Shown here: positions 52,032 through 54,173 of the stretch, piece by piece | Layout: the number at the start of each line of letters is the position of its first letter | Numbering within the stretch: position 1 is the stretch's first letter | From: Mechercharimyces sp. CAU 1602 | GTDB lineage: Bacteria; Bacillota; Bacilli; Thermoactinomycetales; JANTPT01 | Direction of reading: 5' to 3' | Assembly (NCBI RefSeq): GCF_024753565.1 | Contig: NZ_JANTPT010000001.1 | Coordinates: 62,001 to 126,000, forward strand | DNA: 64,000 bases | The notes under the pieces: generated by a model | The model's input: only the letters and a program-made list of their open reading frames with translations | Databases searched by the model: none | Told to the model about the DNA's origin: nothing | Made by a program: the position numbers and the translations under genes

Positions 52032-52484
52032 ATGAATAGTCCAGTTCACGGTTTGATTGATATGAGTACCATCTTGCAACACCGACGCAAGCTGGGAGGT
52101 GCGATTGAAGCGGAGAGCGTCCGTTTGCGCACGGGAGAGTCTTTCTCTCAAGTGGTAGTGGTTTCTGCTGAGCGGACACGTGATCACGTGTATACGGTAG
52201 GGTTGGTGACAGAAGATGGTGAGCATCTCATTGTTCACACAGGGGAAATTTCTATGATTGTAAAACCACGCCATGTCTGTGTAAAAGAGTTGCGCAATCA
52301 AGTATATCGTCAACAACGGGAACACGAATTAATTTGTTATTTAAAACGATTGATGGATGTGAGCGATGGCTTTCAATCACCGGGGGTAAGGGATGAGGTT
52401 TTACGTATCATAGAAGATATCGGCTGGGATGCGGTTAACGAGTATAAAGAGTTTACATTCTTACAAAAGGGCATAAGTGCCTAA
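52032..52484 (+). CDS. Protein of unknown function
   Basis: 150 residues, no signal peptide or membrane segment. The middle looks beta-rich (VVVVSAERTRDHVYTVGLVT, HLIVHTGEISMIVKP) and the C-terminus helical. Not recognised. AAGGTGGGGG precedes the ATG. An AATGAGAATGAGAATTGA stretch at 51991-52009 resembles Fur-type sites loosely. Converges on the encapsulin operon with separate terminators for each direction. Confidence 0.65.
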   Translation: MNSPVHGLIDMSTILQHRRKLGGAIEAESVRLRTGESFSQVVVVSAERTRDHVYTVGLVTEDGEHLIVHTGEISMIVKPRHVCVKELRNQVYRQQREHELICYLKRLMDVSDGFQSPGVRDEVLRIIEDIGWDAVNEYKEFTFLQKGISA

Positions 52485-52537: not shown

Positions 52538-52573
52538 ATAAAGAAAAGCGAACCCTCGCGAGGAGGATTCGCT
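52538..52573 (-). terminator. Terminator of the encapsulin operon
   Basis: On the reverse strand AGCGAATCC/GGGTTCGCT arms with one mismatch, followed by TTTCTTT. It lies 15 bp past the encapsulin stop. Confidence 0.75.
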
Positions 52574-52587
52574 AAACTTTACTTCAA

Positions 52588-53424
52588 TCATGCATGTTGA
52601 CTTTCTAGAGTACAGATCGCTGTAGGACGTTTAATGCGTGGCACGAGCGTTTCATAAACGCGGAAACGATGATTCATATCTTCTCCATCTACATAAACAG
52701 CATGTAGATCTTGCCCAACAGCAATATCTAAGTTTTGTGATCCGGTAGCAAGCAGCACACCGGTTTGTCCTTTGATAGCAGAAGATTGATATACCCCATC
52801 AGTAACAAGCTCCCGCACGTGTTCAATTTCTAATACGTGGGTTCCTGGATGAACGCGGTGGAGGAGGGCATATAGATCGGGTGACAGGACGAGAGCGTAT
52901 GGACCTGCATGTCCTGCCGCTAAGAGCTTACTACGTGCTTCCACAATATCTTGGAAAGCGTGCCCTGCTTTGATCCAATCTTCGCGAAGCAGGGTATGTC
53001 TACCTTTTACATTCATGATGCCTTGAAGATGGAGGCTGTTATCTCCATTAAAGATCAGATCATCTTCTTTAAAAGCGACATAAGCAGCGGCGTCAGCTGC
53101 ACCGCTGAGGTCGATCGGAGTATCCAGCTTATCTGCCATTTCGAGGTCGCGCCAGTAGAGAAGGAAATCCTTATATATAATTGGAATATCTAAATTTACG
53201 CGTGAGGATGGTTCAGCCAGCTTCCCGCCTTCTCCCGTTAAATCGAGATGTCCAGGCTTGGGCTCGGAGTAGATGAAATGCGGAACGCTTTGGATTCCTG
53301 CGCCTAGAGGGCCGTATAAAGAGAGAAAGCGTCTGGCTACTAATTGTCGGCGTGCTGTCTCTATGACGACGCGTTGTAACTCATGTGATGTCTCATGGGA
53401 TAGGGGTGAATCTGAATGGCTCAT
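52588..53424 (-). CDS. Encapsulin shell protein (family 1, HK97-fold)
   Basis: 278 residues with the encapsulin (linocin M18) pattern: an N-terminal helix with VVIETARRQLVARRFLSLYG, then GPLGAGIQ, later WRDLEMADKLDTPIDLSGA, LIFNGDN, and the C-terminal ALVLSPDLYALLHRV and VYETLVPRI. It self-assembles into a protein compartment that takes up proteins bearing a C-terminal loading peptide. The length is close to that of the T=4 IMEF encapsulin shell (about 280 residues, from memory). The start at 53424 stands behind GGAGG and overlaps the stop of the second cargo gene (ATGA), so shell and cargo are translationally coupled. Confidence 0.92.
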   Translation of the reverse strand: MSHSDSPLSHETSHELQRVVIETARRQLVARRFLSLYGPLGAGIQSVPHFIYSEPKPGHLDLTGEGGKLAEPSSRVNLDIPIIYKDFLLYWRDLEMADKLDTPIDLSGAADAAAYVAFKEDDLIFNGDNSLHLQGIMNVKGRHTLLREDWIKAGHAFQDIVEARSKLLAAGHAGPYALVLSPDLYALLHRVHPGTHVLEIEHVRELVTDGVYQSSAIKGQTGVLLATGSQNLDIAVGQDLHAVYVDGEDMNHRFRVYETLVPRIKRPTAICTLESQHA

Positions 53425-53711
53425 GATCGATCCTCCAATCGAGAAAGTGTACCAACAGTCCATTGTTTGGATGAACCCGCTGGTTCTGCCGTATCATTTC
53501 CGGTAAAGCGTTCATTTAATTCGATGACAATCTCTTTTAAGCGCATGTAATCTGCTCCCGATATTTGTCGTAGCTCTTTTAATTTGCGTTGTTTTTCGAT
53601 ATCATCGGGAAGCTCGTACATCGCGAGGTCTAGGTGTTCAACAAAGTTGTGCAGACCAAATTTTTCGATCTGGATAGCTTGCAATACTTGTAAAAATTCA
53701 TGGTTATTCAT
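53421..53711 (-). CDS. Encapsulin cargo, resembling the C-terminal half of IMEF
   Basis: 96 residues, mostly helical, beginning MNNHEFLQVLQAIQIEKFGL. The part IEKFGLHNFVEHLDLAMYEL and the following LKELRQISGADYMRLKEIV resemble what I remember of the second half of the IMEF cargo protein, an iron-oxidising ferritin-like encapsulin cargo. The C-terminus, after a flexible linker, is KQWTVGTLSRL, a good encapsulin loading peptide. The ATG at 53711 has an ideal AAAGGAGG, which lies inside the last codons of the preceding gene. Candidate metal ligands are His21, Glu25, His26 and Asp28. Confidence 0.8.
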   Translation of the reverse strand: MNNHEFLQVLQAIQIEKFGLHNFVEHLDLAMYELPDDIEKQRKLKELRQISGADYMRLKEIVIELNERFTGNDTAEPAGSSKQWTVGTLSRLEDRS

Positions 53712-53991
53712 GGGAACCTCCTTTGTTGGAACGAAGGTCTCCAACAGTCCACTTGCTTGACGAGCCCTCAACTCGGGAGGGTTGTTCTGTTAATTCCTCA
53801 AGTTGAGGAATTAACTCCTCCAAGCGCTTCAGTCGTTCTTCCTCTTCTTCAATAATATGGTGGAAGTACAGTCGTTCTTTCTCTGTTGTCGCATTATCTA
53901 CAGCAGGCTCCAACATATGGACAAAGGTTTCAATAGAAGATTTTGTCCGTTTGAAGAGGGTATGAAGTTCATGAAAAAGATGATCATCCAT
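53704..53991 (-). CDS. Encapsulin cargo, resembling the N-terminal half of IMEF
   Basis: 95 residues. A helical hairpin (FHELHTLFKRTKSSIETFVH and LYFHHIIEEEEERLKRLEEL) resembles the first half of the IMEF cargo as I remember it, including the Tyr/His-His/Glu cluster that could bind iron. After a linker it ends with SKWTVGDLRSNKGG, again a loading peptide of the W-T-V-G-x-L form. The last eight bases overlap the next cargo gene, and its final codons double as that gene's ribosome site. AGGGGGAT precedes the ATG at 53991. First gene of a three-gene operon with the encapsulin shell. Confidence 0.78.
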   Translation of the reverse strand: MDDHLFHELHTLFKRTKSSIETFVHMLEPAVDNATTEKERLYFHHIIEEEEERLKRLEELIPQLEELTEQPSRVEGSSSKWTVGDLRSNKGGSHE

Positions 53992-54173
53992 TAATGTAAT
54001 CCCCCTAGAATTTTTGCCCTCTGCCCGTCATGGTTCTGGGTTTCTATGCTAATATTATGGTACGGTCATTGGTTTGTAAAGGTGTTCTCCTGTTATAAGT
54101 TACCCTAAAGGTGGTAAGATAAGCAGCGGATCATGATGAAAGTAATGGCTGTTAGAAGAGGTAGGTGTAATTA

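Follow-up and report, generated by a model that had tools for sequence, protein, structure and literature searches.

A family 1 encapsulin locus with a probable two-chain IMEF-type ferritin-like cargo in Mechercharimyces sp. CAU 1602

Why should the gene of an encapsulin shell be preceded by two short, overlapping genes, each ending in a loading-peptide motif of its own? The question is raised by a tightly packed operon of three genes (cargo 1, cargo 2 and shell, running from 53991 down to 52588 on the minus strand) in the window, the whole stretch of 64,000 nucleotides of Mechercharimyces sp. CAU 1602 that was analysed. We consider it likely that this operon encodes a family 1 encapsulin loaded with a two-chain IMEF-type ferroxidase, the halves of which would pair, be doubly anchored in the shell and be produced from coupled genes. 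The features of the locus are the following.

54052..54080, minus strand: promoter-like TTTACA-17-TAATAT 5' of cargo 1 (weak evidence)
53704..53991, minus strand: cargo 1, 95 aa, predicted N-terminal half of a ferritin-like cargo of IMEF type, carrying a loading peptide
53731..53754, minus strand: loading peptide 1, KWTVGDLR, from a motif scan
53717..53724, minus strand: ribosome site AAAGGAGG of cargo 2, within the last codons of cargo 1, from the sequence
53704..53711, minus strand: 8-nt overlap ATGAATAA, made of the cargo 2 start and the cargo 1 stop, from the sequence
53421..53711, minus strand: cargo 2, 96 aa, predicted C-terminal half of that cargo, likewise carrying a loading peptide
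53439..53462, minus strand: loading peptide 2, WTVGTLSR, from a motif scan; forms a DNA repeat with the loading peptide 1 region
53421..53424, minus strand: ATGA overlap of the cargo 2 stop and the shell start, from the sequence
52588..53424, minus strand: family 1 encapsulin shell protein, 278 aa, from profile and structure-sequence matches
52547..52573, minus strand: terminator-like hairpin of 11 pairs, 3' of the shell gene
52032..52484, plus strand: convergent neighbour, 150 aa, a predicted protein without assigned family, with homology at IMEF loci

The product of the shell gene scores 228.9 bits against Linocin_M18 and 284.6 bits against NF041155 (cut-off 100), the two profiles by which family 1 encapsulin shells are recognised, and is closest by sequence to 9fy6 and 6nj8, the latter (E 3.5e-99) being the shell of an IMEF system with T=4 (T number from PMC11202242).

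The two cargos match consecutive parts of a single family. In PF24309 (IMEF_Flp; cut-off 27) cargo 1 occupies model positions 1-68 with 82.5 bits and cargo 2 positions 69-135 with 73.2 bits; in TIGR04536 the corresponding stretches are 3-69 (85.9 bits) and 74-144 (83.5 bits), and on 6n63, the solved IMEF protein, they are residues 8-70 and 78-152. By these alignments the predicted products of the two cargo genes are a single IMEF ferritin-like cargo divided into its N-terminal and its C-terminal half, and the part of an earlier note on this DNA that took them for halves of what elsewhere is one gene stands. Both TIGR04536 scores fall below the NCBI cut-off of 100, as expected from length, so that the window pair would go unnamed by NCBI's IMEF model. 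With two ORFs and two tags, it is filed here as a two-chain variant of the IMEF cargo and not as a standard member. A search for plasmid copies of half 1 gave no match.

Single-chain AF2 models, built from 17 (half 1) and 19 (half 2) aligned sequences and poorly predicted in their tails, show a hairpin in each case: H3-32/H37-69 in half 1 (mean pLDDT 83.7) and H3-33/H38-71 in half 2 (mean pLDDT 82.5), consistent with the four-helix bundle geometry of IMEF. The best PDB match in Foldseek is 6n63 for both, with E-values (2.5e-3 for half 1 and 6.3e-2 for half 2) that are weak, as with any short hairpin. VIA-align on half 1 was uninformative, returning many unrelated hairpins, with 6n63 absent from the best 50 matches listed.

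According to the review PMC11202242, the iron site of IMEF sits on helices H2 and H3. Taking the putative iron-site residues from conservation and from this helix assignment, and not from coordinates, we find H45, E48, E49 and E50, in half 1, invariant across 17 rows of N-halves and hemi-IMEF (a half-length relative, see below), and F23, E25 and H26, together with G87 of the tag, in half 2, invariant across 19 rows of C-halves and hemi-IMEF. The conserved helix-2 and helix-3 residues of the IMEF cargo, for which metal binding is putative, are therefore both present across the window pair. Half 1 is the sole carrier of the helix-2 histidine and glutamates, and half 2 of the helix-3 F-x-E-H motif, which makes a heterodimer likely; with the iron site on H2 and H3, each chain would contribute one helix, and from this we infer that the halves pair.

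The proposed working of the cargo can then be stated. Helices 1-2, in half 1, and helices 3-4, in half 2, would each make a hairpin, and the two hairpins would pair into a four-helix bundle. The IMEF iron site, where iron would be oxidised, would arise at the interface between two of these heterodimers, and each chain would dock to the shell through its own C-terminal loading peptide. The loading function of a KWTVGDLR-type tag is deduced from the IMEF targeting peptides (PMC6668986); a tag on each half would fasten the pair to the shell twice, giving two anchors per bundle and not one. Alternatively, two independent cargos could share one shell, each half pairing with itself into an EncFtn-like homo-oligomer of its own. 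This reading, which we regard as unlikely, draws on EncFtn, whose half-size tagged chains make a four-helix bundle in pairs (PMC5012862), and on a weak Foldseek likeness of half 1 to EncB, EncC and P. furiosus EncFtn (E 0.25 to 0.53); by that analogy each half could pair with itself. However, neither half has both motif sets, the halves jointly cover one family from end to end, and both split systems found have the two as a pair in the same order.

Of the closest known systems, the IMEF system of Quasibacillus thermotolerans (6n63, shell 6nj8; PF24309 and TIGR04536) has in common with the window the full length of the cargo family, the shell family, the tag type, the order of cargo then shell and the conserved motifs of helix 2 and helix 3; its cargo, however, is one chain of ~190-200 aa with one tag, whereas the window has two chains, two tags and overlapping genes. 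EncFtn, EncB and EncC resemble the window in the half-size two-helix chain, the C-terminal tag and the four-helix bundle made from two chains, but their chains are identical with a symmetric iron site, and neither window half matches TIGR04535 or NF058679 (EncFtn / EncB) up to E 0.01. In the archaeal Flp-fusion encapsulins, as presented in PMC8346489, a ferritin-like domain is likewise brought to the shell lumen, fused there to the shell protein, whereas in the window the cargo is split instead. According to the same source, no known protein-based iron store is larger than the IMEF shell. A cargo naturally made of two chains would amount to a ready heterodimer for loading two things in a fixed ratio.

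The junctions are as the earlier note had described them. The 3' end of cargo 1, read directly on the minus strand, is AAA GGA GGT TCC CAT GAA TAA; the ribosome site AAAGGAGG lies at 53724-53717 and is separated by five bases from the cargo 2 ATG (53711-53709), both inside cargo 1. The tail SNKGGSHE does follow the first tag, and in Marinithermofilum abyssi, the second split system found, the corresponding tail FKGE likewise encodes a ribosome site, AAAGGAG. The shell gene is joined to cargo 2 through the ATGA at 53424-53421, also read directly. Overlapping genes would keep the amounts of both halves in step, and a near-equal ratio through coupling is plausible; the ribosome site of cargo 2 is very strong, so that cargo 2 may also start without coupling. 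As such, overlap junctions are ordinary here and no more than chance: on rough gene calling, overlaps occur in 5 of the window's 40 same-strand neighbour pairs, in four cases by 1-20 nt, and two of these four belong to the cargo-shell operon. Compared with its relatives the window is nevertheless tight, a cargo-shell overlap being present in only 1 of the 78 named IMEF loci with a measurable junction (start picked by ribosome-site match). As for transcription signals, promoter-like sites in the region number 2 against 3.2 expected in shuffles, which is no more than chance, and terminator-like hairpins, counted on both strands of the region, number 4 against 1.4 expected. The coding end of cargo 1 also contains a perfect 13-bp inverted repeat with a 1-nt centre (53789-53815), which as an RNA hairpin would have -15.2 kcal/mol (z -3.6); none like it was seen by eye in the M. 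abyssi sequence.

Two adjoining halves of a gene usually single may simply mean that the sequence is wrong, or that the gene is in decay after a stop or a frameshift, and in fact two broken one-chain genes exist among the relatives. In the window this is very improbable, since another genome is split too, the tags and ribosome sites are complete and selection is purifying. Among 42 genomes of the same order that were searched, five have IMEF, three as one chain and two split, these being the window and M. abyssi (G010, locus L055). In M. abyssi half 1 ends in PWSVGNLRFKGE and a stop, followed by AAA and the ATG of half 2, which itself ends in RRFTVGNMINRSSTL; its junction, TAG AAA ATG, is unlike the 8-nt overlap of the window, so that M. 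abyssi, with a junction of another kind, repeats the split, the pair of tags and the tail-encoded ribosome site. Between the two genomes pN is 0.26 for half 1, 0.30 for half 2 and 0.17 for the shell, against pS of 0.84-0.88: all three genes are under purifying selection. Together with the second split genome, this argues that the split is no error.

The junction had also been marked for comparison between fused and split forms in relatives. Named genomes were scanned as well and gave 90 relatives of half 2. Of the 80 loci kept, 77 carry a one-chain gene and one, that of M. abyssi, is split; the other two (L065, L088) have a one-chain gene interrupted by a stop, alone or with a frameshift, and no inner tag. 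In an even sample of the class, 51 of 398 genomes match: 45 with a full-length single frame, two split, two half-length and two weak, the last (G170, G290) having no shell gene within 6 kb of DNA. Sampling extended to the phylum gave 2 of 398 genomes, both belonging to the class of the window. For close kin of the split lineage, the order of G063 offers one genome only. The split IMEF cargo is thus real and rare, and in the available parts of the open-access literature (including PMC6668986, PMC11202242, PMC8346489 and PMC5012862) no split or half-length IMEF was found.

How the split arose is a separate matter. The earlier note's further proposal, that a fused gene had merely gained a stop and a restart, is unsupported: half 1 ends in a complete loading peptide, which a stop codon could not create, and the two broken one-chain genes, L065 and L088, have no inner tag. 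In one-chain relatives the boundary between the halves is a linker of 7-13 residues (114 measured), and in the 57 of these linkers that were inspected there is no inner tag or tag remnant. Furthermore, trees disfavour a grouping of the split systems with the fused systems of their own order when the cargo is included (p 0.0045, 0.011 and 0.056), but not with the shell alone (p 0.36).

A half-length relative, termed hemi-IMEF, bears on the question. It was found in 3 of 14 genomes searched of another order (G054, G105 and G181) as a single tagged, hairpin-like protein of ~105 aa, encoded immediately 5' of an encapsulin gene. In the 398 genomes of the class sample no further genome scored better than E 1e-8 against the hemi model, and many of the weaker matches are IMEF N-halves. 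Like each window cargo, the hemi protein is half-size and tagged, lies 5' of the encapsulin gene and has a common neighbour gene; it differs in being a single gene with both motifs in one hairpin, whereas the window motifs are divided over two genes. Its profile matches 6n63 (E 4.3e-10) in two stretches, one per half, residues 10-71 and 82-192, the second of which contains the tag and has E 0.054 alone. The profile also matches EncC (E 6e-4), and two of the three proteins match TIGR04535 and two NF058679, in both cases weakly, besides weak matches to the IMEF models.

On core columns the hemi profile is similar to fused N-halves with probability 96 and, modestly, to fused C-halves with 53 (local) or 21.5 (global); the score for the latter, 24.2, exceeds the best of 100 column shuffles (15.9), none of which was equally high. 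Against split C-halves the similarity is weaker (probability 25 over 26 columns). Direct homology of N- and C-halves was pursued and dropped: a comparison of the A6 and A3 profiles gave 94.5%, but A6 contained hemi rows and tags, and core columns gave a probability of 0.2%, so that homology of the halves is claimed only through hemi-IMEF, that is, through three sequences. Across 57 mutually related fused proteins, hemi helix 1 is at least as close to the C-halves in 57, 56 and 52 comparisons, and hemi helix 2 is closer to the N-halves in 57, 57 and 56. A C-like helix 1 with an N-like helix 2 is the pattern predicted by duplication followed by complementary loss.

Near the hemi operon of G181, a 2Fe-2S ferredoxin is encoded that carries a tag at its N-terminus. 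In L035 (2230-2631, minus strand) and L052 (8094-8477, plus strand), small proteins encoded near the cargo have an N-terminal LTVGSL resembling a loading peptide; that of L035 is a 2Fe-2S ferredoxin. In the window genome, a search covering only the family PF00111 gave no tagged ferredoxin, the one protein of that family being without a tag.

Two histories of the split come near to even. In the first, which we hold at somewhat short of an even chance, the window retains a surviving intermediate: a tagged, self-pairing hemi-IMEF gene was doubled in tandem, each copy keeping its tag; the helix-2 motif survived in copy 1 and the helix-1 motif in copy 2, and in most lineages, though not in that of the window, fusion of the two copies followed, with loss of the inner tag. 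Besides the existence of hemi-IMEF, its double match to 6n63 and its complementary helices, this history has the merit that two tags follow without any tag gain. On the other hand, the halves show no direct profile similarity, the link through hemi being modest on the C side, and the split halves are not the most hemi-like forms, an idea ruled out by their ranks in closeness to hemi of 4 and 13 (N) and 18 and 20 (C) of 59. A tree of halves and hemi, with 59 columns, was too short for use.

Other trees favour this history in three of four data sets, with weak support in each. In the shell tree rooted on other encapsulins, hemi lies outside split and fused forms and split lies outside all fused rows (support 48/76), although the shell alone also allows hemi and split to stand together (p 0.54). 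Split is again outside fused in the cargo and shell tree with hemi and outgroup shells (73/48) and in that with two more fused rows (57/92). When the cargo and shell tree is rooted on hemi alone, by contrast, split falls among the fused rows, next to two that have long branches (95/87 and 94/88), while all fused rows together are not rejected (p 0.20). From these tests, in an argument carried by three hemi and two split sequences, we take the split to be old, and a recent break of a one-chain gene of its own order to be improbable.

The nesting in the hemi-rooted tree speaks for the second history, later fission, to which we assign odds only just under even. Here a one-chain ancestor would have been doubled in tandem, after which copy 1 lost its second half and kept its tag while copy 2 lost its first half; or the tag and ribosome site would have been copied into the middle of the gene. 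Fission by tandem duplication with partial loss is possible, and one-chain IMEF is far commoner. The DNA near the tag of half 2 is also like that near the tag of half 1 (27 nt, 74%; 0 of 2000 codon shuffles score equally high, with both gene ends having to encode a tag, a ribosome site and an ATG), as would be expected of a copied tail. In M. abyssi, however, with the tag motif equally on both chains, this likeness is absent (386 of 2000 shuffles as good), and in the window it therefore looks like later homogenisation or shared constraint. Moreover, fission requires either the gain of a tag or a duplication with two losses, and as a recent event from the order's own fused genes it is disfavoured by the cargo trees.

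Hemi, split and fused forms fit an origin of four-helix ferritins by duplication and fusion. For classical ferritins, a doubling of an EncFtn ancestor was proposed by He et al. (2016; PMC5012862), and the split and hemi forms make such two-helix doubling directly testable within one family. We tentatively suggest, with a little more doubt than belief, that the middle step of this kind of evolution is alive in the window: from a tagged, self-pairing hairpin (hemi-IMEF), through two diverged tagged halves obliged to pair with one another (window and M. abyssi), to a fused chain with one tag (the remaining IMEF systems found). If so, all three states of the doubling step would exist next to one and the same neighbour gene.

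This neighbour, the convergent 150-aa gene of the window, has a homologue at 78 of the 80 named IMEF loci and beside the three hemi operons; in all 78 it is convergent and 3' of the shell gene, in 69 within 500 nt. No NCBIfam model matches it, nor does any Pfam model above its cut-off, DUF502 coming closest with 16.9 bits. Among further IMEF stretches inspected, homologues are absent from L044 and L047 within the DNA covered there. Its product is a possible partner, or the gene a possible locus marker, of IMEF.

Other arrangements were met among the relatives. Bacillus sp. EB600 has three IMEF-encapsulin loci (L064, L086 and L088) on three contigs, one of the cargo genes being broken, and genome G199 has two IMEF cargo genes (L041 at G199:C75, and one at G199:C4). 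In G123 (L045, 944-2380, minus strand), IMEF cargo, loading peptide and encapsulin shell lie in a single frame of 478 aa, which is a bacterial cargo-shell fusion, or a lost stop, or a sequence error.
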